NCBI RefSeq assembly: GCF_025244705.1
Contig: NZ_CP104207.1
Span: 1,302,001-1,366,000 of the forward strand
Length of the DNA stretch: 64,000 bases
Origin: Sphingopyxis sp. PET50
Lineage (GTDB): Bacteria > Pseudomonadota > Alphaproteobacteria > Sphingomonadales > Sphingomonadaceae
Direction: 5' to 3'
Of the stretch, positions 1,957 through 62,486 are shown one piece after another; the stretch's first letter is position 1; the number at the start of each line of letters is the position of its first letter. The notes under the pieces were generated by a model. That model ran no database searches. It saw only the letters and a program-made list of their open reading frames with translations, and had not been told where the DNA came from. The translations under genes and the position numbers were made by a program.

Positions 1957-4288
1957 CAGAAGGCCTGTCCGATCGAGACATAGACGCTGATCCGCGATTC
2001 GCCGGGCCGCAGCGGTCGATCGGCGTCGCGATGTCGAGGCGCATCGGGCCGAAATTCGTATAGAAACGCCCGCCGATGCCGACGCCATAGCGCAGGTTCG
2101 AGAAGTCCGGGGTCGAGCCGCGGTACACCTGCCCCGCATCGACGAAACCGACGATGCCGTAGTTGCCGAAGCGATAGCGTGCCTCGACGGCCGCCTCGTT
2201 GACGCTGCGCCCGCCGATCGGATCATCGTTCGGGTCCTTGGGGCCCAGTTCCTGATAGCCGAAGCCGCGCACCGAGCCGCCGCCGCCGGCGTAGAAGCGC
2301 CGCGACGGGGCAAGGTTTTCCCGCGAGGCGCCAAGGATCGAACCGACGCGAACGCGGCCCGCGAGCACGATGTTTTCGGTCACCGGATAATAGCCGCTGA
2401 CGTCGACGCGCGCGCGGGCATAGGGCGAGAAGCTTCCGCTCAGCGAACCTTCGGGTTGCAGCAGGCCGGTGACGCGAAACCCCTTGGTGGGGTTGAGCAG
2501 GCTGTCGCTGCGGTCGATGCCGAGTTGGCCGGTCAGGCCCGCGATATAATAGACGCTGCGGTTGCGTGCGCCACGCGTGAAATCATAGTCGTCTTCGCTC
2601 GTCGCGATCAGGTCGAGACCATAGGCATAGGTGATCTTCTTTTGCCAGATCGGGGTCGATTCGCTGCTGATGCGCGCGCCTATGTGTCCGGTCAGGGCCT
2701 CGAACGCGTCGTAATCGCTATGAGAGGCTTCGGCGACCAGTGCGAAGGTGCGGTCGCGGCGCCCGGCGTTCGAGCGGCGGAAGGTCACGCCCAGCGCCTG
2801 TTCCTGCGTGCCCGCCAGCCCGCGGACGATCAGCGCTCCTTCGGGCGGGAAGAGGTTGCGGTGGGTCCAGCTGCCCTCGATGCGGATACCCTCGCCGGTG
2901 CCATAGCCCGCGCTGGCGGCGAGGGTGCGCGGCGGCCCCGCCTCCTGCGTCACCAGCATCGTGACATATTCGGTGCCGTCGCCCGCGCTTTCGCCGGTCT
3001 TTTGCGGCTCAACCGCCACCGTCGCGAACAGGCCGGTGGCGACGAGCGCCTGGCGCAGGTCGTCGGTTTTGCGGCTGTCGTAGAGTTCGCCGCGCTTGAA
3101 ACGCGCCAGCAGTTCGACATGCTCGACATCGAACGCGAGCTTGCCGGTCGTCTCGAACCCGCCGAAACGCGAACGCGGGCCGATATCGACGGGCAGCGTA
3201 TACACGCCGGCGGCGATCGCGCCGTCGAGCAAGATGTCGCGCTGGCCGACCACCGCGAAGGGATAGCCTTCCTCGGGCAATTTGAGCGCGATCGCAGCCT
3301 CGGCGCCCTGCACGCGCTCCGCGACGATCGGTTCGCCGACGGCAAGCGGGAAATTATCCTTGATCAGCGTCGGCGGTACGGTCGGGGCCGCGTCGATCAC
3401 GATATCGGACAGCGTGTACCGCTGCCCCGGCGTGACGTCGATGATCGCGGTCAGCGGGCGGCGCTGGCGCGGGCCGGTGTTGGCCGGTGCCTGGGCGCCT
3501 GTAGACGGGGCACCCCCCTGCGCGCGTTCGCCGTCATTGCCGCCGCCGCGGTCGATGCGGGTATCGACCAGCGCGTCATAATAGCCCTCCGACGCGAGGA
3601 TGCGGCGCATCAGGTCGGCGTCGGCGGTCAGGCGGGCGCGGACCATGGCGGCGTTCGCCGCCTCGCCGTCACCGTCGTGGAGCGCGGACAGATCCTCGAA
3701 GAGGTCGGCGAGGTCGGCGTGGGTGCTGTCGTCGGCGGGCGCGAGGCCGTTGACCTGGACGCTATAGGCGATCTTCACATCATCGTCGGCGGATTCGGGT
3801 TCGGCGAATTCGACCGGCTCGACGTTGAAACTGTCGAGCGGCGGCAAGGGTGCCGCGAGTTCGGCATCGTTCACCGGCGCGTCGCCGATCGCCTCGACGG
3901 GGTCGCCGTCGGCGAGCGCGGGGGTCGGGGCGGGTTCGGAGCCGGGAACGGGTTCGCCCCCGGCAGCGGCCTTCGCCGCCTGACGGCGCTCGAACTCGGC
4001 GATCGATTCGAGCGGAACGTCGAGTTCGGGGTCGTCCTCCGCCGAAATCGGCGGGATCGAACGATCGAATTCCTCATCCTCGATGATCGGCTCGACGATC
4101 GGCAATGGCGCACCGGGCGGCGGCGGCGTGGGCTTGGCCATCTCAGCTTCGGGCGCGACCGTTTCGGTGACCGGCGGCGGTGCGGGCGCGTCCTGGGCCT
4201 GCGCCGCGGTTGCGGCAAGGCCGAGCAGCGAGACCGAAAGCGCGAGCAGCGGGCGCAACGACGGCCTCGCCGCGGCCGGGCGCATCAT
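1956..4288 (-). CDS. tamA: TamA, outer-membrane Omp85-family translocation module subunit (frameshifted near its end)
   Basis: An Omp85/surface-antigen protein that forms the outer-membrane half of the TAM complex. It has a signal peptide (Leu/Ala-rich core ending AQAQD), then a long acidic Pro/Ala/Glu-rich stretch of about 150 residues. POTRA-like modules follow, then a C-terminal barrel with the typical 'GGSVRGF' motif. The reading frame breaks at about 2006-2013: after 'IATPIDR' the expected last residues, ending in the beta-signal 'YVSIGQAF', lie in another frame and stop at 1956. Removing two bases (TG on the coding strand) restores this end and a GCCGGC site. The upstream GTG at 4333 is an alternative start; the ATG at 4288 gives the cleaner signal peptide. 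Confidence 0.85.
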
Positions 4289-4466
4289 TATGCGAGGGTT
4301 TTCAGAAATTTGCATCTGCGGACTGCCAATCACCGGCTTCTGACCCGCAGCGGTCGGCGGCGCAACCGGTTTCTGGCAGGATGCGACGGATGGATGACGG
4401 TCCGCAAATCATGTCCCCTGCCGTTGTCCGCAGCAACGTCGAGCGGGCGAAAGTGGTTCCGCGCGC

Positions 4467-5628
4467 TCAGCCTTCCCGGCGCAGCAGGCCGGCCATGATT
4501 TCGGCCTGGCGGTTCACCGAGAGGTTGGCGAGGGCATAGGCGCGCGCCGCTTCGTCGGCGAAATCGCCCTTTTCGAGCAGGGTAGCGAGCAGCTTTGCAA
4601 GAGCGCCGACATCGCCTTCGTCGAAGAGATGCCCCTGTCCGCCCATCACCTCGGGAATCGCGCCCGAGCGGCTGCCGACCATGGTGCGCCCGCACGCCAT
4701 GACTTCCTGAATGACGCGGCCGTATTGTTCTTTCCATTTGGGCGTGCTGATCGACGGCAGGACGATGATGTCCGCCGCATTCATGTAGCGCGCCATGTCC
4801 TCATGCTTCGATTCGAAGAAGATCACCCTCTCGCGCAGGCCCAGCCGTTCGATTTGCGCCTGAAGCTGAGCGGTATAGGCCGAAGCGCCGATAAAATCGT
4901 CGATCAGGAACTGCCAGTTCCCGTCCCGGATGCGGTCGAGCGCATCGATCAGCAGATGGATGCCCTTTTCGGGCGTCTGGCGCCCGAAATAGGCGATCGT
5001 CGGGCGCGTCAGGCCAAGCTCGGCCCGCACCGCTTCGCGCACGGCGGGCAGCGGCTGGAACAGGCGCGGGTCGAAGCCGAGCGGGACCTGCGTCGCGGTC
5101 AGTCCCATCGCCTCGATCAGCGCGGTGCCGTCCTTGCTGAGCGTCAGGACACGATCGACCTTGCGCTTCGCCGAATGACGAAGCCAGGCTTTGACGAGCG
5201 CCGAGGCGATGCCGAGCGGGGCTGCGGGTTTCGGCGGCTTTCCGCAGGTCGCCGCCCAGGCTCTGCGGCATATTCTCGGCCGTCAGCGACCAGAGCCGCG
5301 CGTCCGGCGCGACCTGTTTCGCCTGCCGCACCATCATGCTCGCGGGGTCGCTGTCGCAATAGATGTGGGTGGGGCGGAAGGCATCGACGACCGCCTGCAA
5401 GCCCTGCAGCGTGTGGGTGCGCTGGTTGGTGCCGGTCAGGTCGAGCAAGGTCAGTTCGTAATTTTCCGGCGGGAAATCGGGTGTGTCGCGCCATTTTCCG
5501 CCGACGAAGTGGCGGCGCGGGACGACCAGATGAACCGGGATATCGAGCGCTCCGATCTCGCGGAACAGCGCGCGGTTCACCGGCTCGTGGCACGACAGCG
5601 AAATGGCGAGGAGGCGCGGACCCGTCAC
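4467..5628 (-). CDS. glycosyltransferase family 4 protein (one frameshift)
   Basis: A GT-B glycosyltransferase, probably adding one sugar of the polysaccharide repeat at the cytoplasmic face. The N-terminal half starts at GTG 5628 ('VTGPRLLAISLS') and the C-terminal half reads from about 5230 to 4467. The second half has the GT4 hallmarks: 'YFGRQTPEKGIHLLIDAL', then an 'ADIIVLPS' stretch followed by an acidic donor-site region with 'QEVMACG'. The two halves are in different frames; an indel lies near 5228-5240, and the joined protein would be about 387 residues, normal for the family. Its GTG overlaps the TGA of the upstream SDR gene (GTGA), indicating co-translation. Donor and acceptor cannot be told from sequence. 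Confidence 0.8.
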
Positions 5629-6984: not shown

Positions 6985-6999
6985 GGTTTTTCCTTATGG

Positions 7000-9027: not shown

Positions 9028-10494
9028 TCATGTGCCGCAGAAGGTGACATAGGGCGCGTCGTCCGCGGGTGCCGGTCCGGCGTAGTCCGACCAGTCGGTC
9101 CGTTCGGCATAGGGCGCACGCACGACGTCGAGCAGCGCCAGGAAGGGGGCCAGATCGCCCTGCTCCGCCGCCGCCAGCGCCTCCTCGACCTTGTGGTTGC
9201 GCGGAATGTAGAGCGGATTGACGGCGTCCATCGCGGCGGCGCGCTCGATCGGGTTGATCGGTTCGCGGTCGAGCTGCGCCCACCATTGCGCGATCCACGG
9301 CGCCATCGCATCGGGGGCCGGGAGCAGCGCCTCCATCGCCGACGAATCGCCGCGCAATATCGTCGCCAATGCCCGGAAAAACAGGGTGAAGTCCGGGCGA
9401 TGCCGCTCCAGTTCGTCGAACAGCCCGTCGATCAGCGCGGCATCGCTGGAATGCGGCGCGCCGAGGCCCAGCTTTTGCCGCATCGTCGCGAGCCAGATGG
9501 CGCGGAATTGCTCGCCGACATCGGCGACCAGCGTCTTTGCGGCCTCGACATCGCCGGGGTCGACCGAATGGATCGCCGGCAGCAGGGCTTCGGCGAAGCG
9601 GGCCATGTTCCAGTTCATGATCGCCGAGCTGGTTGCCATAGGCGTAACGGCCGTTGGCGTCGATCGAGCTGTAGACGGTGTGGACCGCGAAGCGATCCAG
9701 GAAGGCGCAGGGACCATAGTCGATCGTTTCGCCGCTGACCGCGACATTGTCGGTGTTCATCACCCCGTGAACGAAGCCGATTCCCATCCATTTCGCGACG
9801 AGCAGGCACTGGCGCTCGATGACCGCCGACAGCAGGGCAAGATGCGGGTTGGCCCGTCCGGCAAGGTCGGGGAAATGCCGAAGCGAATCGTATAGTCCGA
9901 CAGCTGGATGACATGGTCGGGACCGAAATGGGCGGCAAAGAACTGAAAGGTGCCGACGCGGATGTGGCTGGACGCGATGCGGGTCAGAACCGCGCCGGGA
10001 TGCGCGCGTTCGCGCTGGACGCGATCGCCGGTCGCGACCGCCGCAAGCGCGCGCGTCGTCGGCACATGCATCGCCGCCATCGCCTCCGAAACGAGAAATT
10101 CGCGCAGCACCGGGCCGATCGCCGCCTTGCCGTCGCCGTTGCGCGAGAAGGGCGTCGGCCCCGACCCTTTCAGCTGCACATCGTAGCGTTCGCCGCCGGG
10201 CGCGACGATCTCGCCGAGCAGCAGCGCGCGGCCGTCGCCGAGCTGCGACGAGAAATGGCCGAACTGGTGCCCGGCATAGGCAAAGGCGAGCGGGTTGGCG
10301 CCCCCCGGCACGGAATGGCCGGAGAAGAGGCGCGCGAGCGCTTCGTCATCGGCGTCGGCGGCCGCGAGACCCAGCTTTTCGGCGAGCGTCCGGTTGAAGA
10401 GGAGCAGCTCCGGGGCCGGCGGCGCCGCCGCTCCGGCGGGGGCGTAAAAGCCTTCCATCTCGCGGTGGAAGCTGTTGTCGAAGGCGATGTCCAT
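9028..10494 (-). CDS. selO: SelO/YdiU family protein adenylyltransferase (two frameshifts)
   Basis: SelO is a pseudokinase-fold enzyme that transfers AMP to proteins in redox control; it has no known role in polysaccharide synthesis. The start is '[13 protein letters not shown]', and family motifs are 'AYAGHQFG', '[13 protein letters not shown]', '[12 protein letters not shown]' and '[15 protein letters not shown]'. The frame breaks twice: at 9877-9884, where removing two bases restores '[12 protein letters not shown]', and at 9623-9629, where removing one base restores '[13 protein letters not shown]'. Both repairs recreate GCCGGC. The repaired protein is about 488 residues, normal for the family. 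It sits oddly between the CDP-sugar and GDP-fucose genes. Confidence 0.85.
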
Positions 10495-13589: not shown

Positions 13590-14587
13590 GTGACCGTGCT
13601 CATCACAGGGGCCGCTCGGCTTCATCGGTTTCCACCTTGCGCGGCGGCTGATGGGCGAAGGCTCAGCCAGTCGTCGGCATCGACATCGTCAACGACTATT
13701 ACGACCCGGCGCTGAAGCGCGCGCGCCTGGCGAAATTGTCCGAGGAATTCGGTGACCTGTTCACCTTTCGCCAGGTCGATTTTGCCGATGCGAATGCACT
13801 CGACGCCGCGCTCGTCGATCTGAAATTCGCCGATATCGCGCATCTCGGCGCGCAGGCGGGGGTTCGCTATTCGATCGACAACCCGCGCGCCTATGTCCAG
13901 TCGAACCTGGTCGGCCATCTGAACCTGCTGGAAGTCGCGCGCGAGCGGCAGGTGCCGATGGTCTATGCCTCCTCCTCCTCGGTCTATGGCGGCAACAAGG
14001 ACTTGCCCTTCCGCGTCGAGGATCGTGTCGACCATCCCATGTCGCTCTATGCCGCGACCAAGAAAGCCGACGAATTGATGAGCGAAACCTACGCCCATCT
14101 CTATCGCATTCCGCTGACGGGCCTGCGCTTCTTCACCGTCTATGGCCCATGGGGCTGACCCGACATGGCGATGTGGATCTTCACCAGGGCGATCTTCGAG
14201 GGCACGCCGATCCAGGTGTTCAACGCCGGGGCGATGCGCCGAGATTTCACCTATATCGACGATATCGTGTCTGGCGTGGCTGCCTGCATCGCCAACCCGC
14301 CGCCCGACGACGGCGAACTCAAGGCCGGCGGCAGCGCCGCGCCGCACCGGCTTTACAATATCGGCAACAACCGGTCGGAGGAACTGACGCGGATGATCGC
14401 GCTGATCGAGGAAGCGTGCGGGCGCGAGGCGATCAAGGAAATGGCGCCGCTGCAGCCCGGCGATGTGCCCGAAACCTACGCCGACATCAGCGCGATCTCG
14501 GGCGATCTGGGGTACGAACCGACGACGCCGATCGACGTCGGCATCCCCAATTTCGTCAACTGGTACCGCGACTATCACCGGATTTGA
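13590..14587 (+). CDS. UDP-glucuronate 4-epimerase family SDR (two frameshifts and one in-frame stop)
   Basis: Extended SDR of the LspL/CapI/GalE-like group that interconverts UDP-glucuronate and UDP-galacturonate or their N-acetyl forms. Motifs are 'VTVLITGAAGFIGFH' (after repair), 'YYDPALK', 'QAGVRYSIDNP', 'YASSSSVYGGNK', 'YAATKKADE' (YxxxK) and 'MRRDFTYIDDIVSG'. Three lesions are visible. An extra T at 13616 turns GCCGGC into GCTCGGC, an extra T lies at 13663, and a TGA at 14156-14158 replaces the Arg codon in the conserved 'YGPWGRPDMA'. Frame and homology resume after each. A strong ribosome-binding site supports the GTG start. The next gene is a nucleotide-sugar dehydrogenase, so the pair likely makes and epimerises a uronic acid. 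Confidence 0.8.
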
Positions 14588-15959: not shown

Positions 15960-17371
15960 ATGTCGCGTACTCGGGAGTCCTTGTTCGACCGCTGGTTTCT
16001 GGCGATTTTTCTGGTTGCCATCCTGTTATTCGGCGGTTCCGCACGGGTGGACAGCGTCGGACTGGTGATCGTGCGCACGCTGGCGATCGCCGCGATCGCC
16101 TTTACCTTGCCCGGTTGGTGGGACGAAGCCCGGCGCAGCAAGCTGGTCGATCGTTATCGCCCGCTGCTCCTTCTTCTCGGCGCGGCGGCGGCGTGGATGG
16201 TCATCCAGCTCATCCCCCTGCCCGCGGGCCTCTGGGCGATGCTTCCGGGCCATGGCGACCTCGCCGCGAAAATGACCGCCGCGGGGGTCGAGGTCGGCTG
16301 GCGGCCGCTGGCCCTGTCGCCGGGGCGCGCGATCCATTCGCTGCTCGACCTGCTCGTGCCGCTCGCCGTCGTGCTGGTGGTCGGCCGCACCTCCGACACG
16401 AGCCTGCGCGCGCTGCCGCTGCGCCTGCTCGCCTTTCTCGCCGTCGCAGCGACCTTTGGCATGCTACAATTGCTCATGCCGACGAAGGCGCTCCCTATTT
16501 CCACCGCATCACCAATGTCGGTGCGGCGGTGGGCTTCTTTGCCAACCGCAATCACCACGCGGTGTTCCTGGCGCTTTATTGGCCGTTGCTGCTGTGGTTC
16601 ATCCACGGCCGGAACGACCGCGCGGGCAGCCATGCCGCCACCCTGCTCGGCGTATTGGGCGGCGTTGCCGTGATGCTGGCGATCATGGCGACCGGGTCGC
16701 GTGCCGGCCTCGCCATCGGCGGCGTCAGCTTCCTGGCGACGAGTGTGCTCCTCTATCGGATGCGGGGGGCCGCGGTGGGGACCGAATCGGCCGCCCAGAT
16801 CGTGCGGCTGACCCTGCTTGGCTCGATCGTCGCCACGATCGGCGGCGCGGCCGCGATGCTGGTGCTCGGCGGCGGGTTCATGGACCGGCTGGACCAGGGC
16901 GACGTGATGACCGACCTGCGCTTCGCGATCCTGCCGACGCTGAACGGCATCATCTGGGATTATGCGCCCTTCGGCAGCGGCTTCGGCGGCTTCGAGGCGG
17001 CGTACAAGATCGTCGAACCGGTCGAGCTGCTGTCGCTGCAATATCTGAATCATGCGCACAACGACTATCTGGAGCTGTTGATCGACGGCGGCCTGCCGGC
17101 GCTGGGGCTGCTCGCCGGTTGGGGTTTCATCGTCTGGCGTGCGGCAAGGCGCGGCTGGAGCAACGAGCAGGCGGCGGCGACCGATCGCGTCGGAATCGTC
17201 GCGTCGCTGATGATGCTGGGAATTTTCGCGGCGGCGAGCCTCGTCGATTATCCGCTGCGCACCCCCGCGCTGGCGTCGATGGCGACGCTGGCGACGGTCC
17301 TTTTGTATCGCCGCCCCGATATTCCGAAAGCCCGGCGCAAGGGACAACGGACCTCGGCGGGGTTCCGCTGA
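15960..17371 (+). CDS. O-antigen ligase/polymerase-family membrane protein (one frameshift)
   Basis: A polytopic inner-membrane protein. The N-terminal part begins 'MSRTRESLFDRWFLAIFL' and has several hydrophobic segments. The C-terminal part has more, plus 'LNHAHNDYLELLIDGGLPA', the motif of the RfaL/Wzy_C (O-antigen ligase-like) family. The frame changes near 16474-16475, just before 'HADEGAPYFHRITN'; removing two bases joins the parts cleanly. A second Wzy-like protein is encoded at 26922, so this one may be a ligase or act on a different chain. It precedes the export genes. Confidence 0.75.
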
Positions 17372-17476: not shown

Positions 17477-18189
17477 GTGAATTTTCGTTTGGCTATCGCT
17501 AGCCTGACCGCCGCCTGCCTGTTGGCTAGGCTGTGGCGGTCGTCCGCAGCTCATGAGCACACCGACCTTGCAGGTTACCGACGGCAATTCGCTTCCGGCA
17601 CCGTCGGGAAGCGACTTGGTTGGCGAGACGCGGCCCTATCTGATCGGCCCGTTCGACCGGCTGAGCGTCGACGTCTATGGCGTGCCCGACCTCAGCAAGC
17701 AGGTCCAGGCCGACGCGTCGGGCAAGATCCAGCTGCCGCTGATCGGCGAGGTTCAGGCGTCCAACCAGACAACCGCGGAGCTCGCCGAAGCGATCGAAGG
17801 GCGGCTCGCCCGCTTCGTTCGCCGTCCCGACGTCAGCGTCAACGTGACCGAATCGGTGAGCCAGGTGCTGACCGTCGATGGACAGGTGACCCAGCCGGGC
17901 CTCTATCCGGTGGTCGGCAAGATGTCGCTGATACGGGCCGTCGCGCTCGCGAAGGGCACCACCGAATTCGCCAAGCTGGACGATGTCGTGGTTTTCCGGA
18001 CGGTCAACGGCCAGAAGATGGCCGCGCTCTACAATCTGAAGGCGATCCGTACCGGCCTTTATGACGATCCGGAGGTGTTCGCGAACGACGTCATCGTGGT
18101 CGGCGATCTCGCCCGCCCGCCGTCTGTTCAAGGATATTTTGGCGACGACGCCGCTGCTGGTGTCGCCTCTCGTCGCCCTCATCCGGTAA
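17477..18189 (+). CDS. Wza/GumB-like outer-membrane polysaccharide export lipoprotein (two frameshifts)
   Basis: A polysaccharide export protein of about 236 residues once repaired. It has a lipoprotein signal (Leu/Ala core, then repaired 'LLAGCGG' with the lipobox Cys). The polysaccharide-export domain ('IGPFDRLSVDVYGVPDLSKQ') follows, then an SLBB-like domain ('VDGQVTQPGLYPV'), and a hydrophobic C-terminal helix ending 'LVALIR'. At 17525-17531 GCTAGGC stands where GCCGGC would keep the frame; at 18105-18111 an extra T in GATCTCG shifts it again. Repairing both gives a continuous gene ending at TAA 18189. The GTG at 17477 has a purine-rich ribosome-binding site eight bases upstream. It is paired with the Wzz/BY-kinase that follows. 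Confidence 0.85.
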
Positions 18190-18213: not shown

Positions 18214-20440
18214 ATGACCGACGCAATACCCCAGCCGCCGACGATGGCCATTCCCGCGAGCCAGACCGGCGACGGCGACCCCGCCCGGCAAGGCAGCGGC
18301 TTCGCCACGGCGATGCCGTGGATCCTGCAATATTGGCGCGTCGCGCTGCGCTGGAAATGGGTGATCGTCGGCACGATCGTCGCCTGCCTGATCGGCGGCG
18401 CCATCTATACGATGCTCGCGCAACGTATCTATACCGCGAACGCGCGGATCGAGATTTCGCGCACCGAATCCAAGGTGCTCAACATAAACGGCGTCGAGCC
18501 CGAGCGCGGCGGGCGTGTCGAGCAGGAATTCTATCAGACGCAATATAATCTGCTGCGCGCGCGCTCGCAGGCGGAACGCGTCGCGAAGAGCCTGAACCTC
18601 GCACGCGACCCCGCCTTCCTCGCCGCCTTTGGCGGCAAGGCGCCGCCGTCGTCGCTGCGCGTGATGTCCAAGGCCGAACTCGATCAGGCCACCCGCAGCG
18701 TCGCATCGAAACTGGGCGGCAACGTCGTCCAGATCAAACCCGTCATCGGTTCGGCGCTGGTCGATATTTCGGTGGCGACCCCGAATCCCGAATTGTCGGC
18801 GAAGATCGCCAACAGCTGGGCCGAGAATTTCATCGCCGACAACCTCGAGCGCCGGTACGATCTCGGCGTCCTATGCCCGCCGCTTCCTCGAGGATCAGCT
18901 CAAGCAGACCAAGGCCAAGATGGAAGAGGCCGAGCGCGAGATGATGAGTTATGCCGAACGGCAGGGAATCCTGACCATCGCGCAGTCGGACAGCAGCGAC
19001 CCGAAGGCGCCGACCGTCGAACGCTCGATCATGGCGACCGACCTTGTCGCGCTGAACGATGCGCTCAATCGCGCCGTCATCGAGCGCATCGCCGCGGAGG
19101 GCGCGCTGAAAGCCGCGACCGGCCAGGCGACCGCGGTCGCCGACGGCAGCTCCAGTGTCACCGCCATGCGCCAGCGCAAGGCGGATCTGCAGTCCGAATA
19201 TGCCAAGCTGATGGTGATCTTTCAGCCTGACTATCCGCCTGCGCAGGCGCTCGACCGCCAGATCAAGGAACTCGACCGTGCGATCACCACCGAGTCCAAT
19301 CAGGTCGGCGGATCGAGCGTCGCGGCCGCGCGTTCGGCCTATGACGCCGCGCTCGCCCGCGAACAGGAGCTGCGTTCGCGCGTCGCGGGAACCAAGACCA
19401 ATCTGGTCGATGAGCGCCGCCGCAGCGTCCAGTACGGCATCCTCCAGCGCGAGGTCGATACCAACCGCGAATTGTACGACGGCCTGCTCCAGCGTTACAA
19501 GGAAGTCGGCATCGCCGGCGGCGTCGGCACGAACAATGTCGCGATCGTCGATCGCGCCCTGACGCCCGGCAGTCCGTCGAGTCCCAATCTGATCAGCAAC
19601 ATGTTCACCGCCTTGCTCGTCGGGCTGGCGCTGGCCGCGCTGCTGACGATCATCCTGGCGCAGATCGACACGACGGTCCGCGATCCGGCCGAAGCGCAGG
19701 ATGTCACCGAACTGCCTCTGCTCGGCGTCATCCCCGACACCGACAACGAACTGGCGATCGAAGAGGTGCGCGACCGCAAATCGTCCCAGTCCGAAGCCTA
19801 TCTGTCGGTCCAGACGGCGCTGCGCTTCTCGACCACGACGGGCGTGCCGAAATCGCTGATGTGCACGTCGACGCGCAAGGGCGAGGGCAAGTCGACATCG
19901 TCCTACGCGCTCGCGCTGTCGCTGCACCGGATCGGCCGCACCGCGATCGTCGTCGATTGCGACCTTCGCTCGCCGTCGGTGCATCGCCTCGCCGGGGTCG
20001 CCAACGGCGCGGGGACCAGCAACTTCCTGTCGGGCAACAACGATATCCTTTCGATGGTGCATCACGACGAATCGGACGGGCTGGCCTTCATCACCGCGGG
20101 CCCGATGCCGCCAAATGCCGCCGAACTGCTGTCGAGCGACCGCATTGCAGACCTGATCGCCGCGCTCAGCCAGCATTATCAGCACATCGTGCTCGACGCG
20201 CCGCCGGTGCTCGGTCTCGCCGACTCGCCGCTGCTCGCGAGCAAGGTCGAAGGCGTCGTCTATTGCGTCGAGGCGGAAGGCGCGCGGACCAACGCGATCC
20301 GCTACTCGCTGGCGCGCCTGCGCGCCGCCGGGGCGACCTTGCTCGGCGTGGTGCTGACCAAGTTCGACGAAAAGCGCGCCTATTATGGCTATGGGTATGA
20401 ATATGGTTATGGCTATGCCGACGCGCAGCCGGGGGAATAA
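18214..20440 (+). CDS. Wzz chain-length regulator fused to BY-kinase (one frameshift)
   Basis: An inner-membrane polysaccharide co-polymerase with tyrosine autokinase domain, about 741 residues. It has a first membrane segment at about residues 48-68 and a long coiled periplasmic Wzz/GNVR region. A second membrane segment ('MFTALLVGLALAALLTIIL') follows, then the kinase with Walker A-like 'STRKGEGKST' (about 551-560) and A' 'IVVDCDLRSP'. The tail is a tyrosine cluster ('YYGYGYEYGYGY') expected to be autophosphorylated. The frame breaks at 18859-18865 (extra T in GATCTCG), and repair gives 'YDPASYARRFLEDQLKQT'. It partners the Wza-like protein just upstream to control length and export. Confidence 0.88.
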
Positions 20441-23821: not shown

Positions 23822-24835
23822 AAATATTGACCCCGGTCAGCGGCAATCGCTGGGCCGTTCCCGATTGCTATTTTCGCGGGCTGGTGGCGGCCGGGGCCGA
23901 CGCGGTTTCCTATGACGTCGGCGAAGCCCCGACGTCGCTCGCCGGGCGGATATTGCGCCGTTTCGAGCGGATGACGGGTTCGGCGGCGGCGAAACGGCTC
24001 GAAGCGGCGGTCGAAGCGGTCCGCCCCGATATATTGGTCGTGTTCAAGGGCTTCGACTATCCGCCCGCCCTGCTCCGCCGGATCGCGGCACGCGGGATCA
24101 TTCTCGCCAATTACAATACCGACCATCCGTTCCGCTTCTTCTCACCGGGATCGGGCAACGCGAATGTCCGCGACAGCGTGCCGCTCTATCGTCTCTACAT
24201 GACGTACAGCGGCCCGATCGGCCGCGAACTGGAAGCCGCCAATCCGGAGCAGAAGGTCCTTGTGCTGCCGTTCGGCCATGCCATCGACGACGCGCTGCAC
24301 GACGAACTGGCGACCGAAGCCGAGGTCGTGCGCGGCTGCTTCAACGGCAACCCCGACGAGGAGCGCGCCGAGGCGGTGCGCTTTCTGGCTCGGCAATGGC
24401 GTGCCGATGGACCTTTACGGCTATGGCTGGGAGAAATTCGTGACGCCGACCGCGACCTTGCGGATTTGCACGCCCGAGGCCGGGATCGACATGTTCCGCA
24501 TCCTGCGCCGTTACCGCTTCCAGCTCAACCTGTTCCGGCCGCATAACGAGGGATCGCACAATCTGCGCAGCTTCGAGGTGCCGGCGGTCGGCGGCATCAG
24601 CCTTGGCCCCGACAGCCCCGAACATCGCGATTTCTTCATCGCCGACCGCGACGCCTTCTATTTCTCCGATGCCGAGGGGATGCTGGCCGAAGCGCGCAAG
24701 CTGCTGGCCTTGCCGGCCGATGAGGCGGAGGCGATCCGCGGCGCGGCCCGCGCGCGCACCGTCGCGCTGCGGTCGCATTTCGACGACCGCGCCCGCGTCA
24801 TGCTGGCCGCGCTGACCGAACTGGTGACGCCATGA
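23818..24835 (+). CDS. CgeB-like glycosyltransferase (one frameshift)
   Basis: A glycosyltransferase with an N-terminal domain starting 'MKILTPVSGNRWAVPD' and 'ILVVFKGFDYPPALLRRIA', followed by a C-terminal Glyco_trans_1_2-type domain. The latter reads 'FRILRRYRFQLNLFRPHNEGSHNLRSFEVPA', in the style of CgeB/spore-maturation glycosyltransferases. The frame breaks at 24388-24394, where GCTCGGC replaces GCCGGC; removing the extra T gives 'VRFLAGNGVPMDLYGYGW'. The repaired length is about 338 residues. The GTG start overlaps the previous stop, and the stop overlaps the next ATG (ATGA at 24832). Confidence 0.8.
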
Positions 24836-28325: not shown

Positions 28326-30205
28326 CGCGCCTGCTGCTGATCAATCCCAGCTTCCGCCTCGAACAGGGCGGCCCGGCCTATTCGGTCGGGCGGCTGGCGG
28401 GGGCGCTCGGCGGGATCGGGCATGACGTGACGGTCTGGGCGCCCGACGGCAGCGCCGAACGCGCGCGCGATTTCGATCCGACGGGGCGGGTGATCCCCTC
28501 GACCGCGCCGGTCGGCGACGTGCTGGCGTCGCAGCCCTGGGATGCCGTGCACGACAACGGACTGTGGCTGCCCTATGGCGCACAAGTCGCCCGCCATTGC
28601 CGCGAGCGCCGCATCCCGCGCCTGCTGAGCGTCAGGGGCATGATGCAGCCGTGGGCCTGGCAGCATCGCCGCTGGAAAAAGCGGCTCGCCTGGGCGCTGT
28701 ACCAGAAGCGCGGGGTCGAAAGCGCGGCGCGGCTGCACGCGACGGCGGCGGACGAGGTCGCGCGGATCCGCGAGCGCTACCCCGAGCGGCAGCCGCTGCT
28801 GATCGCCAACGGAATCGATATTCCCGATGCCGCTCCGCGCGCGCCCAAGGCAGTCGATGCGATGCGTACCGCCCTGTTCCTGGGGCGGTTGCATCCGGTG
28901 AAGGGGCTGACGATGCTCGTCGATGCCTGGGCCGAGGTGCGGCCCGCGGGATGGCGGCTCCAGCTGGTCGGCCCCGACGAAGAGGGTTTCCGGGCGCAAC
29001 TGGAGGCCCGGATCATCCAGAACGGGCTTTCGGAGGTGATCGCGATCGACGGGCCGGCGAGCGGCGACGCCAAGCGCGCCCATTATGACGCCGCCTCGCT
29101 GTTCGTGCTGCCGAGCTATACCGAGAATTTCGGTATTTCGGCCGCCGAAGCCCTCGCGCATGGCTTGCCCGTGATCACCACGACCGGCACGCCGTGGCAG
29201 GTGCTGGAGACCGAAGGCTGCGGCTGGTGGGTCGCCCCCGAGGCCGCCGCCATCGCGGGCGCGCTGGCCGACGCGACCGCCCGGCCCGACGCCGAGCTCG
29301 TCGCCATGGGTGCGACGGGCCGGGCATGGGTTGCCGATCACCTGCACTGGCCCGCCATTGCCAAGCAGTTTGCCGATGCCTATGCGGACATGCTTGCCAG
29401 CCCGTCGCCGAGCTTAATCAGGGGATTCTCGGTGGTTGTACCGAGCGTGCGTTTTACGATCGTCACTGTCTGCTACAATCCCGGCGAGGCGATCGACGCC
29501 TGCCTGCGTTCGGTCGCCGACCAGGGTTATCCGCATATCGAGCATATCGTCGTCGACGGTGCCTCGCCCGACGGTACGGCCGAGCGTATCGGCAAGCTCG
29601 ACTGGTTCAGGGGCAAGCTGGTATCGGAGCCCGACAAGGGCATTTACGACGCGATGAACAAGGGGGCGGCGCTGGCGACGGGCGATTATGTCGGCTTTCT
29701 CAACGCCGACGACTGGCTCGGCGATCCCGATGCCGTGGCGCGGCTCGCCGAAGCCGCCGCAGCCCATCCCGGCGCCGACGCGGTTCAAGGCGATGTGGTG
29801 ATCGTCGATCCCGCGAAACCGGCGCGCCAGCGCTATTATTCGGGCGCGGGCAACTGGCGGCGGCGCTTGCGCTGGGGCCAGATGCCGCCGCATCCGGGCT
29901 TTTACATGCGCACGGACCTGTTTCGCGAAATGGGCGGATTCGCGACCGATTACCGGATCGCCGCCGATTACGACCTGATGCTGCGCTTTTTCTGCACCGG
30001 TGGGCGGACGTCGGTGCACGTCCCGGCTCCAATCGTCACCATGGCGACCGGCGGCGTGTCGAACCAGGGCCTGCAGAGCCGCAAGATCATCAACCGCGAG
30101 ATCAGGGTCGCGTGCAAGCGCAACGGGGTCAAGACCAATGCGCTGATGATCTGGTCGAAATATCTGACCAAGATTTTCCAATATGTGCCGCGCCGGGCCT
30201 CCTGA
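28322..30205 (+). CDS. GT4-GT2 glycosyltransferases in one reading frame (probably two genes joined)
   Basis: The open frame encodes 627 residues with two complete catalytic units. Residues 1-365 are GT4: 'GGPAYSVGRLAGAL', 'LFLGRLHPVKGLTMLVDAW', then 'SYTENFGISAAEALAHGLP'. Residues about 375-627 are GT2: 'FTIVTVCYNPGEAIDACLRS', 'GIYDAMNKGAALATGDYVGFL', with the DxD-type 'NADDW'. Between them, AGCTTAATCAGGGGATTCTC holds a Shine-Dalgarno-like AGGGGA (29420-29425) six bases before an in-frame GTG (29432). Dropping one T at 29414-29415 would create a TAA at 29415-29417. Two separate genes, 28322-29417 and 29432-30205, are therefore more likely than a true fusion. Confidence 0.8.
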   Translation: MTRLLLINPSFRLEQGGPAYSVGRLAGALGGIGHDVTVWAPDGSAERARDFDPTGRVIPSTAPVGDVLASQPWDAVHDNGLWLPYGAQVARHCRERRIPRLLSVRGMMQPWAWQHRRWKKRLAWALYQKRGVESAARLHATAADEVARIRERYPERQPLLIANGIDIPDAAPRAPKAVDAMRTALFLGRLHPVKGLTMLVDAWAEVRPAGWRLQLVGPDEEGFRAQLEARIIQNGLSEVIAIDGPASGDAKRAHYDAASLFVLPSYTENFGISAAEALAHGLPVITTTGTPWQVLETEGCGWWVAPEAAAIAGALADATARPDAELVAMGATGRAWVADHLHWPAIAKQFADAYADMLASPSPSLIRGFSVVVPSVRFTIVTVCYNPGEAIDACLRSVADQGYPHIEHIVVDGASPDGTAERIGKLDWFRGKLVSEPDKGIYDAMNKGAALATGDYVGFLNADDWLGDPDAVARLAEAAAAHPGADAVQGDVVIVDPAKPARQRYYSGAGNWRRRLRWGQMPPHPGFYMRTDLFREMGGFATDYRIAADYDLMLRFFCTGGRTSVHVPAPIVTMATGGVSNQGLQSRKIINREIRVACKRNGVKTNALMIWSKYLTKIFQYVPRRAS

Positions 30206-35655: not shown

Positions 35656-36237
35656 TGCACGCCGTGCCCTGGAAAATCCGCTTCGCGCAGCATGTACTGG
35701 GCATCAACGGCGCGGCCTATTGGCCGATGCATCCCGACAGCCAGCTCGACTATCCGAACCGCGTCCTGCTCGGGCGCGACAGCTGGCCGGGCATCGCGCC
35801 CTTATGCTATGTCAGCGCCAATATGGGTATCGTGATCGGCGACGGGGTGACGGTCGGCCGCGAGGTCGGGCTGATCTCGGGCGACCATGATCCGACCCGA
35901 TTGACGAACTATCTCGACTCCGATCCGCAAATCATTGGCAATCATTGCATCATCGAGGACGGCTGCACGATCCTGCCCGGGGTCGAACTCGCCGAGCATA
36001 TCGTCGTGACGCGCGGCAGCGTGGTGACGCGATCCTGCCTGCAGCCCCGCGCGATCCTCGGCGGCAATCCCGCCCGCGTCGTCGGCACCCATGATCGGCT
36101 CGGCACCGGTAATCGCCGCGGATGCGCCGCACGGCTATATCCGTGCAAGCGATTTCGACAACTTCGCGCGCCGCAATCTGCGCCATCGCTATCTGGGGCG
36201 TTTCGGCGCCGCATTGGCCGCTGCCGACGGCGACTGA
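35655..36237 (+). CDS. left-handed beta-helix acyltransferase (one frameshift)
   Basis: A shorter hexapeptide-repeat acyltransferase with 'GINGAAYWPMHPDSQ', 'GIVIGDGVTVGREVGLISGDHD' and 'VELAEHIVVTRGSVVTRS'. 'ILGGNPARVVGTH' follows, typical of the end of the beta helix. The frame breaks at 36099-36105, where GCTCGGC stands for GCCGGC. After removal of one T the C-terminus reads 'DAPHGYIRASDFDNFARR' and ends at TGA 36237, three bases before the next start. The repaired length is about 193 residues. Paralogous to the neighbours at 34963 and 39706. Confidence 0.82.
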
Positions 36238-42164: not shown

Positions 42165-42170
42165 CAGACG

Positions 42171-47705: not shown

Positions 47706-49671
47706 TCAGCTCGCGAGCGGCGCCTGGATTTCGCCGCCGGCCTGATTGACTTCTTCGGCAGGCCGAAATTCGGGCACCAGGCCGCGCAGGATCGCCAGGC
47801 ATTCGTCGGCCAGGCCGGCATCCATCGCCGCGCGCAGCGCGTCGAGCCGCACCGACAGCTCGCTCCACTCGAGCATCGCCTCGCGCGCCTGCATGATGCG
47901 GCTGTGGCTCGTCGGTTTGGGATCGTCGCCGATGAGCAGCTCTTCATAGAGCTTTTCCCCGTTGCGAAGGCCGATCTCGGCGATTTCGATGTCGCCGTCG
48001 GGATGATCCTCGTCGCGCACGGTCAGGCCCGACAGGTTGATCATCGTGCGCGCCAGCTCGATGATCCGCACCGGCTTGCCCATGTCGAGCACGAACACCT
48101 CGCCGCCCTTCGCCATCGCGCCCGCCTGGATGACGAGCTGCGCCGCCTCGGGAATCGTCATGAAGAAGCGGGTGACGTCGCGGTGGGTGACGGTCACCGG
48201 GCCGCCATTCCTGATCTGCTCGCGGAACAGGGGCACGACCGACCCGCTCGACCCCAGCACATTGCCGAAGCGCACCATCGCGAAGATGGTCTTGCTGCCG
48301 CGCGCCGCCAGACCCTGCAGCACCAGTTCGCACACGCGCTTGGAGGCGCCCATGATATTGGTCGGACGCACCGCCTTGTCGGTACTGATCAGCACGAAAT
48401 TGGTCACGCCGACGCGGTCGGCCTCGGTTGCCATGAACAGGGTGCCGCAGACATTGTTGCCGATGCCCGCGATCGGGTTCGCCTCGACCAGCGGCACATG
48501 CTTGTAGGCGGCGGCGTGGAAGATCGTCTCGGGCCGCCAGCGCGCCAGCAGGCGGCGCACGGTCGGCTGGTCGGTGACATTGCCCAGTTCCTCGATCAGT
48601 TCGGGTTGCTGCCCTTCGGGCAGGCCGCGGATCACTGCCTGCAATTCCTGCCCGATCGCGTACAGCCCATATTCCGACGATTCGACAAGGATCAGCTTGT
48701 CGGGCCGCATCGTCACGATCTGGCGGCACAATTCGCTGCCGATCGAGCCGCCGGCGCCGCTGACCATCACCGCCTTGCCGACGATCGTGCGCCCGAGCAG
48801 CAGCTGGTTGGGCGGCACCGGGTCGCGGCCGAGCAGATCCTCGATCTGGACGTCGCGCAGGTCGCTGATCGACACCTGCTCGTCGATGATCTGCCGCATG
48901 TTGGGCAGCATCCGGACGCGGATCGGCCAATCTTCGAGCGATTTCATCACCCGGCGGCGTTTCGCGCGCGTCACATGCGGCAGCGCGAGCAGCACGTCCG
49001 TGACGCCATAAGTATCGACCAGATAGGGCAGTTTCGGACGCGAATAGATGGGAATGCCGTCGATGATCTCGCCCTCGATCTTGCGATCGTCGTCGATGAA
49101 GCCGACGACGCGCAGCGCCGGGTCGCCGCGCAGCGCCATCGCGAGTTGCTGCCCCGCTTCGCTCGGCGCCGTAGATGAGCGCGATCGATTGCTGGCCGAC
49201 GTCGCGGCGCTTGAGCAGATCGACGACGGCATAGCGCGCAACGATGCGCGTGATCGCAAGGAACAGCAGAAAGACGATCGGCTGGATCACCGCGACCGTA
49301 CGCGGCACGCCTTCCATGCCGACGAAACCGAACAGCACGATCATCGGGATGGCATAGAGCATCACCGAATAGCCGAGTCCGACCATTGTCCGCCCGCCCG
49401 AAAAGCGCAGGATCGAGCTATAGGTGCCGCGAATGAGGAAGATCGGCAGCCAGCTCGACAGCGCGACCACCGATGCGAGCCCCACCGCCGCGTCGAAGAT
49501 CACCCATTGGCCGACGCGGAGCGAAAAGGCGACGAGCACGGCGGCGACGCACAGCACCGCGTCGGCGACGATCAGGATTGCGCGCTTTTCGCTGCGTCCG
49601 AGCGCGACAAGCGACGCCAGGATCGCCAATATGCGTGCTTCGACCGCTCCCCAGATGCGCGTCAGGATCAT
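47706..49671 (-). CDS. CapD/FlaA1/WbpM-type nucleoside-diphosphate-sugar 4,6-dehydratase (one frameshift)
   Basis: A large membrane-anchored SDR of about 655 residues. The N-terminal half has about four membrane segments and an atypical nucleotide-binding domain. The C-terminal half is the catalytic dehydratase: 'VSGAGGSIGSELCRQI', 'HAAAYKHVPLVE', 'LISTDKAVRPTNIMGASKR' and 'FGNVLGSSGSVVPLF'. The active-site Tyr is replaced (SDK/STDK type), usual for WbpM. The frame breaks at 49161-49167; the plus strand reads GCTCGGC for GCCGGC, and repair gives 'IYGAGEAGQQLAMALRGD'. Such enzymes make UDP-4-keto-6-deoxy-GlcNAc for QuiNAc/FucNAc. The ATG overlaps the phosphatase stop (ATGA). Confidence 0.88.
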
Positions 49672-50451
49672 GCGGCGACGCTCTCTCCGGTCTTCAGGAA
49701 ACGCCGCGCCCGTCCTTCGAGCACCAGCGCCGTGAGTATGCCGCTGCGATAGGCGCCGGTGTCGATCCCGATCCGGTTGGTGCGGCAATCGACGTCGGGC
49801 GTGATGGTGTGACCATGGACGACCATCACGCCATGATCCCGCTCATCGTCGAGAAATTCGTCGCGGATCCAGCGCAGGTCGTGGACCTGCTGCTGATCGA
49901 GCGGACGTCCGGGAAAAATCCCCGCATGGACAAAGAGATAATCGCCGATCTGCACATAATCCACCATCGAGCGGAACAAACGGACATGCGATGCCGGTAT
50001 GCTCGGCATGGATTTTGGCGACCAGAGCCTCTCTATCGCCGAAAATGGTTGCGTCTTCAAGTCCATAGCTCTGCAGCGCCTGTTCGCCGCCATAGCGGAT
50101 CCAGCCGGGAAGCTGCGAATGGGCGCCGTCAAGGATTTCGAGCAGGGCTTCTTCGTGATTGCCCATCAGCAGGTGCATCTCGTCGACGCCAGGCGGTTTG
50201 GCCAGCAGCCGCTCGACGACATGTGCCGATTGCGGGCCGCGATCAATGAGATCGCCGAGCATGACCAGATGAACCGTATCGGCCGGGTCGCGGCGGCTTT
50301 CGTCGGCGATCCGCGCAAGCAGCGCGTCGAGCAGGTCGAGACGGCCGTGAACGTCGCCGATCGCATAGACGCGCGTGCCCGGCGGCACCTGCGGCCAATC
50401 CTCGGCAACGGGCTCGGGGGCCGGCTTGCGGTTGAAAAGTCGTTTTAACAT
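49668..50451 (-). CDS. metallophosphoesterase, serine/threonine phosphatase-like (one frameshift)
   Basis: A calcineurin-like phosphoesterase of about 260 residues. It has the metal-binding motifs 'AIGDVHGRLDLL' (D-x-H-G), 'MLGDLIDRGP' (G-D-x-x-D-R-G) and 'LLMGNHEE' (G-N-H-E). The C-terminal part has 'IGDYLFVHAGIFPG' and 'VMVVHGHTITPD'. This combination is typical of PrpA/ApaH-like phosphatases. The frame breaks at 50001-50007 (plus-strand GCTCGGC); repair gives 'KIHAGIPASHVRLF'. It may act in signalling; its link to the polysaccharide is only positional, through overlap with the capD-like gene. Confidence 0.82.
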
Positions 50452-51788: not shown

Positions 51789-53074
51789 TATCGAACAGAA
51801 AGTCACCGTCGTCGGCCTCGGCTATATCGGCCTGCCGACCGCCGCGCTGATCGCGCGCTCGGGCTGCAAGGTCACTGGCATCGACGTCAGCGCGAAGGTC
51901 GTCGAGACGGTCAACAACGGCAAGGTGCATATCGAGGAGGTCGATCTCGACGGCCTCGTCCAGGGCGTCGTGTCGCGCGGCGCGCTCGTCGCCTCGACCG
52001 AAATGGCCTAGCGCCGACACCTTCGTGATCGCGGTGCCGACCCCGCACGACGACGAGCATCGCCCCGACATCAGCTACGTCCTCGACGCCGCGCGCGGGA
52101 TCGCAAAGGTTCTCCAACCGGGCAATCTGGTGATTCTCGAATCGACCTCGCCGGTCGGGACGACCGAGAAGGTCGCCGAATTGCTCGCCGCCGAGCGCCC
52201 CGACCTGAAGGTTCCGGGCCGCTGCGCGGGCACGCCCGACATCTTCATCGCCTATTGCCCCGAGCGCGTGCTGCCCGGCCGCATCCTCGTCGAGCTGGTC
52301 GACAACGACCGCTGCATTGGCGGCATCACCCCGCGCTGCGCGCGCCGGGCGATGACCTTCTATCGCCAGTTCGTGCGCGGCGCCTGCGTAACCACCACGG
52401 CGCGCGCCGCCGAAATGGTGAAGCTGGTCGAGAACAGCTATCGCGACGTCAACATCGCCTTCGCCAACGAACTGTCGATGATCGCCGACAAGATGGGGGT
52501 CGATGTGTGGGACGTGATCCGCCTCGCCAACCTCCACCCGCGCGTCAACATCTTGCAGCCCGGCCCCGGCGTCGGCGGCCATTGCATTGCGGTCGACCCC
52601 TGGTTCCTTGTCCATGGTGCGCCCGACGAGAGCCGTCTCATCCGCACGGCGCGCGAGGTCAATCTGGCGAAGACCACGCACGTCATCGCCGCGACCGCCG
52701 CGCTCGTCGCGAGCCATCCGCAGGCGAAGGTCGGCGTGCTCGGCCTCGCCTTCAAGCCCAATATCGACGATTTCCGCGAAAGTCCGGCGGTCGAGGTCGC
52801 CGCGGCGCTCGCCCGCCAGTTCGGCCAGCGCATCCGCATCGTCGAGCCCTTCGCGCGCGGCCTGCCGATGGAATTCGCGGGCAGCGGCGCCGAGCTGGTC
52901 GATCTCGACGACGCGCTCGCCGAGTGTGACGTGATGATCGTGCTCGTCGACCATGACGTGTTCAAATCGGTCCCACTCGAGGAACGCAGCGGCAAGATCG
53001 TTTACGATACGCGCGGCCTGTGGCCCGATCAGGGATGGCCGGCGGTGGCGCAGGGGCCGCGCGCGGTGGCCTGA
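51778..53074 (+). CDS. wecC: UDP-N-acetyl-D-mannosamine dehydrogenase (one frameshift)
   Basis: Oxidises UDP-ManNAc to UDP-ManNAcA. The N-terminus starts at GTG 51778 with 'VTVVGLGYIGLPTAALIARS'; the catalytic Cys is in 'GPGVGGHCIAVDPWFLVH', and 'LGLAFKPNIDDFRESPAVEV' is the NAD/UDP domain motif. The frame breaks at 52006-52012, where GCCTAGC creates a stop. Its complement is GCTAGGC, the same error type seen elsewhere, and GCCGGC there would give 'EMAGADTFVIAVPTPH'. The repaired length is about 431 residues, normal for WecC. Confidence 0.9.
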
Positions 53075-58367: not shown

Positions 58368-59326
58368 AGCCGACGCCGTCCAGCGGCTGTCGCAACAACT
58401 GGAATCGCTTGCCGGCCCGGATTGGCAGCGGCTGAGCTATGGCGTCGCGGTGTCGGGCGGCCCCGACAGCATGGCGCTCCTTTGGCTCATGGTGTCGCTG
58501 CTGCCGGGCCAGGTGCGCGCGGCGACAGTCGACCACGGACTGCGCGAAGGATCGGCCGAGGAAGCGCGGATGGTCGCGGGTTTTTGCGAGCGCGACCATA
58601 TCCCGCACGCCATTCTCTGCCCGCCCGTGCCGATCCGCGGTTCGTTCCAGGCGGCGGCGCGGGCCGAACGCTATCGGTTGCTCGAACAGTGGCGCGCGGC
58701 GCATGCGATCGACTTTGTGGTGACCGCGCACCATGCCGACGATCAGCTCGAAACGCTGATCATGCGGATCAACCGGAGCAGCGGCGTCGGCGGCCTCGCC
58801 GCCATCCGCGCGCGCAACGGCGCGATCCTGCGCCCCTTGCTCGGGTGGCGCCATGCCGATCTGGTCGCGCTGGCGCTCGACGCCGACCTGCCCTTCGTCG
58901 ACGATCCGTCGAACGCCGATGTTCGTTTCGACCGTGCGCGCCTACGCAAGGATCTGCAATCGCAGCATTTTCTTGATGCGGAAGCCGCCGCGCGCTCGGC
59001 GCAATGGCTCGCCGATGCCGACGCCGCGCTCGACTGGATGGTCGATGAACTCATCGGGCACTGGCCCGATGCCGGCGATCCCGCGGCGATCCGCGATGCC
59101 GGTTATCCGGCGGAAATTTTCCGCCGTATCCTGGTACGGCGCCTGTGCGCCTTCGATCCGCAACTGACCTTGCGCGGCGTGACGCTCGACGGGGTGATCG
59201 CGGCGATGCGCGAGGGCCGCGCGGGCGATGGTCGGCACGCTGCTGATCGACCGGATCGACGGGGACGACACCGGTTTCTGGCGCATTTCGGCGGCGCCGC
59301 GGCGAAAAGCGCGCCCGGCGCGCTGA
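58333..59326 (+). CDS. tilS: tRNA(Ile)-lysidine synthetase TilS (frameshift near the end)
   Basis: Modifies the CAU anticodon of tRNA-Ile with lysidine. The PP-loop 'VSGGPDSMALLW' is near residue 40; 'ATVDHGLREGSAEEA', 'HHADDQLETLIMRI' and 'GGLAAIRARNGAILRPLL' are all TilS motifs. The ATG at 58333 lies inside the end of cpoB, which is common in this pair. The frame shifts near 59226-59229; without it the protein ends 'GTLLIDRIDGDDTGFWRIS' with a stop at 59326. TilS is essential in most bacteria, so a real knockout here would be unlikely. Confidence 0.88.
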
Positions 59327-61351: not shown

Positions 61352-61376
61352 GCACCATCTGGTTCGGGGGAACGGA

Positions 61377-61869
61377 ATGAAGCGGAAAAAATTCCGGTTG
61401 CCGCGGTTCGGCCTCGGCGTGGCGGCGATGTTCGCCTTGGCGAGCCCCGTGCAGGCCTTTCAGCGCGTCGAATTCAGCCAGAATGTCGAGGTCGAAAAGG
61501 TCGAGACCGGTGCCGAGGGGCAGCGCAAGATCAGCTTTGCGGCACCCGAAACGGTCGTTCCCGGCGACCGGCTGCGCTTCACGCTTCAGCTCGACAATCA
61601 TACGAGCGAAGCCGCGGCGGGCCTGAAGTTCGTGAACCCGATCCCGCCCGAGGTCCGCTTTGCCAGCACCGACGACCTCGCCGGCTTTTCGGTGTCGGTC
61701 GATGGCGGCCGGACCTATGGTGACCTCGCCGGGATGACCGTTCCGGTGGTCGAGCGCCGCGCCGCGAGCCGCGACCGCCGACGATGTGACGCACGTGCAA
61801 TGGGTGCTCGCCGAACCCCTCGCACCGGGTGCCGTCAAAAAGGTCACCTTCTTTGGCACCGTCCGCTAA
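61377..61869 (+). CDS. secreted DUF11-like hypothetical protein (one frameshift)
   Basis: A small exported protein. The basic N-terminus and hydrophobic core end 'SPVQAF', a likely signal peptide. An immunoglobulin-like/DUF11-type domain follows, with 'ISFAAPETVVPGDRLRFTL', 'NPIPPEVRFAS' and the C-terminal 'VQWVLAEPLAPGAVKKVTFF'. The frame changes near 61766; repair gives a protein of about 163 residues ending at TAA 61869. A good ribosome-binding site (GGGGGAACGGA) precedes the ATG. No function can be given. Confidence 0.75.
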
Positions 61870-61878
61870 GCTGCGGCA

Positions 61879-62486
61879 ATGACGATCTATTGCGATGAAT
61901 CGGGCGGCCTCAACGCCGGCGCGATGACCTTTGCGGCGGCCATGCTGACGCCGGAGGCGGCCGCCGACATCCATGCGCGATTTCGTGCCGTCACCGGATT
62001 GCGCGGCGAGCTCAAGGGCAGCCGAGATCTCCATCGTCGAGCGGGCCTATCTGCTCGAACTGTTCGACCGCGCCGGCGGTCGCGCATGGGTCGCGGTGGC
62101 CGAGCGGGACAAGCTCGCGGCGAGATCCCGGGGGCATCTTGCCGAGCGATCTCGCGCTTTATGGCGCCCTGCTCAACAGCGCGGTCGGCCATTGGCTGCC
62201 CGAAACCGGGGGCGTGTGCACCGACGTCGTGATCGACGACGGCCGCTACGACCCCAAGATATTGTCGCTCGTCCGCGAGGAAATCCAGGTGGGCCTCGGC
62301 CAGTGGGGCCGCGCCTCGCTCGCCGACAGCCGGCGCAGCGACGGGGTGCAGATCGCTGATGTGATCGCGAACAGCCTGTTCAACATCGCGGTCAAATCGC
62401 CCCGCGCCGCGCGGATCGAGCGGATCATCGAGCCGATGCTGGCGTCGAAGGCGATCCGGGTGGCGGAGTTGACGCAGGTTTCCTGA
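61879..62486 (+). CDS. DUF3800-family protein (two frameshifts)
   Basis: A protein of about 201 residues. The N-terminal 'MTIYCDESGGLNAGAMTFAA' is the DUF3800 signature, with an acidic D-E pair in an RNase H-like fold. Later parts are 'ISIVERAYLLELFDRAGG' and 'DGVQIADVIANSLFNIA', with the conserved C-terminal Asp. These occur in three different frames; the breaks are near 62021-62028 and 62121-62137. DUF3800 proteins are small predicted nuclease-like enzymes of unknown function. It starts nine bases after the DUF11-like gene. Confidence 0.75.

Follow-up and report, generated by a model that had tools for sequence, protein, structure and literature searches.

It is already established that the consensus of nanopore assemblies can contain errors at methylation motifs. 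In Klebsiella, about 70% of the errors made by the then-current basecallers of Oxford Nanopore Technologies (ONT) with default models are reported to fall in Dcm motifs (PMC6591954), and in Neisseria 74.76% of the erroneous indels are reported at or adjoining methylated sites (PMC12506013). Two potential GANTC-linked errors, with just some copies of the motif affected, are described for Brucella (PMC12392509), and low-quality nanopore genomes of Listeria, in which the modification errors were mostly mismatches, are reported to have regained quality after amplification (PMC10687267). Here we describe frame-breaking insertions in the genome of Sphingopyxis sp. PET50, and in particular in a stretch of 64,000 nucleotides of its one contig (G000:C1:1302001-1366000, hereafter the window). 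These insertions are very likely base-calling errors of a nanopore-only assembly, made at GCCGGC, the predicted methylation target of a NaeI-type restriction-modification system. They resemble the published ONT modification errors, as these sources portray them, in clustering at methylation motifs or sites, surviving polishing, affecting some motif copies only and depending on the strain. In the open-licence PMC literature, we found no paper combining nanopore, methylation, indel and GCCGGC.

Two described systems are closest to the PET50 genes discussed below. The type IIE enzyme NaeI (PDB 1ev7, 1iaw) is stated to cleave GCCGGC (PMC7653180); a review of Type II enzymes prints the site as GCC|CCG, which we take for a misprint, as PMC7653180 gives GCCGGC. 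The PET50 locus is similar in that a PF09126 endonuclease adjoins a C5-cytosine methylase, and differs in having a Vsr gene after them and a specificity that is predicted. The second system is the GANTC methylase CcrM (PDB 6pbd): PET50 encodes a protein that matches CcrMI and carries a RAMA domain, whereas the corresponding error class in PET50 is small and weakly supported, and GANTC methylation is a prediction.

Frame-breaking insertions in PET50

The PET50 genome (CP104207) is a single contig of 3,796,965 bp with a G+C content of 66.71% (PMC9872611; 66.5% in our 400 kb sample). It was obtained from R9.4.1 MinION reads (deposited as SRR21734874) at 40x by Guppy 5.1.12 super accuracy base-calling, assembly with Flye and two rounds of Medaka, and short reads are nowhere mentioned; by its assembly description, the sequence was built from nanopore reads without short-read correction (PMC9872611). 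Its completeness is 87.04%, whereas 48 of 59 listed relatives from the genus reach 99-100%.

We aligned the window to the matching regions (L012-L031) of five genus relatives (G001, G059, G045, G026, and G012) and judged the 54,985 bases covered by at least three of them. Under a strict rule, which accepts only length differences not divisible by three on which all covering relatives agree, we counted 22 insertions (1-2 bases each) and one deletion in the window, i.e., its frame-breaking changes are almost all insertions. When each relative in turn was taken as the focal genome in the same procedure, the same region gave 0-2 indels per genome. A looser rule (75% agreement) gives 29 clusters in the window, some of them intergenic. 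The initial annotation, made from the window alone, had claimed small indels in conserved genes at the palindrome GCCGGC and proposed a comparison with the same genes in relatives; the alignment confirms insertions specific to the window, and all 11 sites that it had named are among the 22, displaced by a few bases at most.

The 22 insertions are listed below, with gene names taken from that annotation and the number of covering relatives that agree:

2006..2013, minus strand: insertion of 2, form GCTGCGGC, in a tamA-like gene; 5/5 relatives
5211..5217, minus strand: insertion of 1, GCTCGGC; 5/5 relatives, GCCGGC in 3
9623..9629, minus strand: insertion of 1, GCTCGGC, in selO; 5/5 relatives
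9877..9884, minus strand: insertion of 2, form GCTTCGGC, in selO; 5/5 relatives
13614..13620, plus strand: insertion of 1, GCTCGGC, in an epimerase gene; 5/5 relatives, GCCGGC in 3
13661..13667, plus strand: insertion of 1, GCTCAGC; 5/5 relatives, GCCGGC in 3
16472..16479, plus strand: insertion of 2, odd form GCTCATGC, classed as other; 5/5 relatives, GCCGGC nearby in 1
17525..17531, plus strand: insertion of 1, GCTAGGC, in a wza-like gene; 5/5 relatives, GCCGGC in 4
18105..18110, plus strand: insertion of 1, GATCTC, at a CcrM-type site; GATTC in 5/5 relatives
18859..18864, plus strand: insertion of 1, GATCTC, at a CcrM-type site; GATTC in 5/5 relatives
24388..24394, plus strand: insertion of 1, GCTCGGC, in a CgeB-like glycosyltransferase (GT) gene; 5/5 relatives
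29407..29413, minus strand: insertion of 1, GCTCGGC; 5/5 relatives, GCCGGC in 2
34748..34754, plus strand: insertion of 1, GCTAGGC, in an aminotransferase gene; 5/5 relatives
34796..34802, minus strand: insertion of 1, GCTCAGC; 5/5 relatives, GCCGGC in 4
36098..36104, plus strand: insertion of 1, GCTCGGC, in an acyltransferase gene; 5/5 relatives, local alignment uneven
49161..49167, plus strand: insertion of 1, GCTCGGC, in a capD-like gene; 5/5 relatives
50001..50007, plus strand: insertion of 1, GCTCGGC, in a phosphatase gene; GCCGGC in 5/5 relatives
52006..52012, minus strand: insertion of 1, GCTAGGC, in a wecC-like gene; 5/5 relatives
59216..59222, minus strand: insertion of 1, GCGCGGC (a string common by chance); 5/5 relatives
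61733..61759, no strand: insertion of 1, no motif form, classed as other; 3/3 relatives, alignment poor
62024..62031, no strand: insertion of 1, AGATCTC; 5/5 relatives, GATTC absent in relatives here
62122..62127, minus strand: insertion of 1 near GATCTC; 5/5 relatives, place uncertain within about 20 bases, a nearby GCTCGGC common to relatives

The excess extends beyond the window. A codon-usage model, applied to 20 evenly spaced PET50 stretches (400 kb), found 88 places where the frame switches with no gene boundary, in 340 kb of coding sequence, compared with 11 in 311 kb for the five relatives, which also trained the model and may therefore be favored by it. We aligned five more regions in the same way, namely the rpoBC neighborhood, L049, L042, L040, and L036 (the last two chosen since the codon model flagged many switches in both), which added 22 insertions and five deletions. 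Over the six regions, PET50 has 44 insertions and six deletions in 128,891 aligned bases, and the relatives, treated alike, have nine of each in 675,217 bases, so that insertions per base are about 26 times as frequent in PET50. With L040 and L036 left out, the counts are 34 insertions in 102,672 bases vs. seven in 565,705. Two of the six PET50 deletions (window 13585; L049 18945) seem to sit immediately before a start codon. The former, at 13585-13591, is one base relative to five relatives, apparently non-coding and just upstream of the broken epimerase gene, and is probably ordinary divergence.

The RNA polymerase genes are among those broken. The match of PET50 to RpoC of the relative G001 is split between two frames (99.4% identity over residues 1-634, 97.5% over 636-1426), RpoB is broken twice (near residue 20 and at 1350/1351), and the codon model places seven switches in the rpo region of PET50 vs. 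0, 1, 0, and 1 in four relatives. The rpoB family has one match in the PET50 genome. Cells need intact RNA polymerase genes to live. Because rpoB, which is single-copy, and rpoC are both broken, the breaks are very unlikely to be mutations, and the indels, real in the deposited file, are very likely absent from the organism.

Motifs at the insertions

In the sequence of the relatives at the insertions, no other hexamer is as enriched as GCCGGC, which occurs at 20 of 44 vs. 1.76 expected from random places, as the initial annotation had held for the window. Likewise, among GCCGGC sites conserved in four regions, an indel occurs at 4/26 in PET50 and at 1/95 in four relatives, and the errors thus cluster at one motif. 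By comparison, 13 other motifs, which include GACTC and seven palindromes, show indels at 7 of 1746 conserved PET50 sites in these regions. In the PET50 sequence itself, strings derived from GCCGGC accompany 33/44 insertions vs. about 6.5 expected, a figure that includes one spurious case (62119, where the string is common to relatives) and owes part to GCGCGGC, which is common by chance; GCTCGGC is the commonest (18).

The initial annotation had also noticed that the broken sites take few forms. Its four forms, GCTCGGC and GCTAGGC among them, are found at 14 of the 22 window insertions vs. 0.72 expected; 13 is the fairer count, and 62119 is among the 14 solely through the GCTCGGC string common to relatives. 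Beyond the window, from which the forms had been taken, they mark 8/12 insertions (0.36 expected), and in two further stretches 3/10. GCTCAGC, GCGCGGC, and GCTTGGC are forms beyond these four. When a form string is followed by G it looks rarer (5/24 form strings vs. 426/852 intact readings, with both orientations counted). The codon-model switches point to the same motif: GCCGAGC, the complement of GCTCGGC, is their top 7-mer (32/88 vs. 6.7 expected), and one of the forms lies within 30 bases of 49/88 switches vs. 11.7 expected.

A second class consists of GATCTC where the relatives have GATTC, as at 18105 and 18859. It accounts for 6/44 insertions vs. 0.5 expected, and 62119 carries GATCTC too; with 62119 included, the relatives have GATTC at five of the seven GATCTC-bearing insertions. 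Conserved GAATC/GATTC sites in the four regions carry an indel at 3/36 in PET50 vs. 0/139 in relatives. This class is a weaker claim than that of GCCGGC, because it is not clearly seen at the codon-model switches.

Several approaches did not bring out the motif. GCTCGGC is no commoner in PET50 than in relatives, GCTAGGC is somewhat commoner (0.76 vs. 0.41 per 10 kb) and GCTCAGC slightly so; motif counts alone thus do not reveal the effect, which emerges when PET50 is compared with relatives or scanned by a codon model. The window has 65 copies of GCCGGC vs. 97 in shuffles, and we dropped this shortage as a sign of a restriction system, given that the relatives span 9.0-15.7 per 10 kb, that the window lies within this range, and that the five aligned relatives have no NaeI-family match. 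When one or two bases were dropped from the local strings and the resulting 5- and 6-mers ranked, GCCAGC outranked GCCGGC, since there are several ways to reverse a single form; the relatives' own letters decide for GCCGGC.

Methylase genes and other features of PET50

PET50 has one C5-cytosine DNA methylase (PF00145). Its gene is followed by those of a NaeI-family endonuclease and Vsr in a row (G000:C1:2469712-2471975; L011:1501-3764), the endonuclease matching PF09126 at 186.1 bits (cut-off 25) and PDB 1ev7 at E 3.2e-28. The cytosine methylase gene thus adjoins that of the endonuclease, and a relative of the PET50 methylase is present in 79 of 80 NaeI loci fetched. Among 80 genomes of the genus, the NaeI family is found in PET50 alone, and the PET50 lineage may therefore have acquired the methylase/endonuclease/Vsr system. 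For Aeromonas hydrophila NEB724, a table lists GCCGGC with position 3 (PMC8565308), which we read as the methylated C, i.e., the C that is preceded by the extra base in GCTCGGC.

Other genomes with the same system lack such breaks: in 17 of the 80 fetched loci, with endonucleases 65-74% identical and the methylase found in 16, the codon model gave two frame switches in 119 kb of coding sequence, a control read with the provisos that the model was trained on the genus and covers the GC-poorer loci thinly, and that sequencing methods are not in the record titles. A Vsr match is present in 14 of the 80 loci, and the control hardly tests Vsr.

A CcrM candidate is encoded at C1:1111207, with an N6-adenine methylase domain and a RAMA domain and a match to CcrMI at E 1.5e-149; with its predicted methylation, it fits the GATTC insertion class. 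A further N6/N4 DNA methylase is present at G000:C1:1900379-1901102 (L134, L135) as two adjacent pieces, one of them with an internal stop; either a similar miscall or genuine inactivity may account for this.

An Rfam search of the window returned no matches. Two of the aligned regions contain dispersed short repeats, roughly 90-130 bases long and largely situated between longer matches. They have numerous matches in genomes of the genus and form an interspersed repeat family:

L042, about 5435-5563, 14327-14455, and 19862-19992: dispersed repeats
L049, about 464-547, 6938-7063, and 13908-14000: dispersed repeats

A probable methylation-linked miscall and its alternatives

Over a mutational hotspot, the initial annotation favored a sequence-specific error of long-read data, perhaps at a methylated site. 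This explanation is supported by the nanopore-only record, the lone NaeI-family endonuclease with its C5 methylase, the broken rpoB and rpoC and the 17 unbroken control loci, and we infer the last causal step. In this mechanism, the C5 methylase would methylate one of the cytosines of GCCGGC in each strand, and the R9.4.1 current over the methylated site would, in some sequence surroundings, lead Guppy to call an extra base, mostly giving GCTCGGC. Medaka polishing would leave that base in place since the error would be common to most reads, and a fraction of GCCGGC sites, such as the 4/26 conserved ones above, would be left broken in the consensus. At GATTC, the same error may arise, more rarely, from CcrM methylation of GANTC.

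Several observations weigh against this reading. Methylation is a predicted cause, and the GCCGGC specificity of the PET50 methylase and endonuclease is predicted from their family. A count of intact and broken GCCGGC sites had been proposed for the whole genome; it was run on the four regions, where 15/26 conserved sites are intact beside the four with an indel, and we found no clean flanking rule for broken vs. intact sites. Substitutions at conserved GCCGGC are not raised (7/26 in PET50 vs. 21/95 in relatives), and the Listeria errors, as reported, are dominated by mismatches, unlike the insertions at GCCGGC in PET50 (PMC10687267). GACTC, likewise a GANTC site, has an indel at 0/7 conserved sites, and GATTC-class strings occur at just 4/88 codon-model switches vs. 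2.4 expected. Neither form lies within 30 bases of 39/88 switches, and 11/22 window insertions have no codon-model switch within 250 bases, which means that the model misses many insertions. Finally, 5/44 insertions match neither motif; three of these contain or adjoin a GCCGGC-like string. Insertions at L049 7954, L049 8692, and L036 8922 lie in or beside such a string without the usual forms, which suggests that miscalls may also occur at the motif's edge.

A real mutational hotspot, in which methylated GCCGGC gains bases in the living lineage, e.g., through faulty repair by the neighboring Vsr, would predict the motif enrichment equally well, and the Vsr gene beside the methylase and the 6 months of laboratory selection that preceded isolation (PMC9872611) would suit it. 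We nevertheless regard it as very improbable: it would have to break single-copy rpoB as well as rpoC, it is not seen in the 17 other NaeI-type loci (where Vsr is hardly tested), and the changes are nearly all gains of bases, while deamination of 5-methylcytosine (m5C) would yield C-to-T substitutions, which are not raised.

Ordinary nanopore errors in GC-rich DNA at 40x, with a motif link that arises from sequence alone and no role for methylation, would suit an R9.4.1 nanopore-only record (PMC9872611), and the five insertions of neither motif and the 39 switches without either form could be of this kind. As an account of the whole pattern, this is highly unlikely, for it does not explain why GCCGGC ranks first of all hexamers, why the 13 other motifs are so rarely hit, or why the affected genome is the sole NaeI-family carrier among 80 of the genus. 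Genome decay with true pseudogenes, or programmed frameshifting, would account for the many broken frames and the low completeness, and is the least probable explanation, given that RpoC protein identity is 97-99% on either side of the break, that the breaks have few inserted-base forms in common, and that the counted changes are by definition not shared with the compared relatives.

Taken as base-calling errors at predicted methylation sites, the broken genes of PET50, RNA polymerase included, and its 87% completeness very likely belong to the sequence file. In this isolate, which came from a poly(ethylene terephthalate) (PET) enrichment, such errors would mislead counts of lost genes, surveys of pseudogenes, and enzyme mining. 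At the same time, the errors indicate the likely target of an uncharacterized restriction-modification system, and the reasoning is applicable to other nanopore-only genomes. There is about an even chance that the consensus errors of such a genome serve as a fossil record of its methylome, in which the GCCGGC and GATTC scars name the specificities of a NaeI-type methylase and CcrM from the deposited letters alone. If so, mining archived genomes of this kind could reveal what uncharacterized methylases target.

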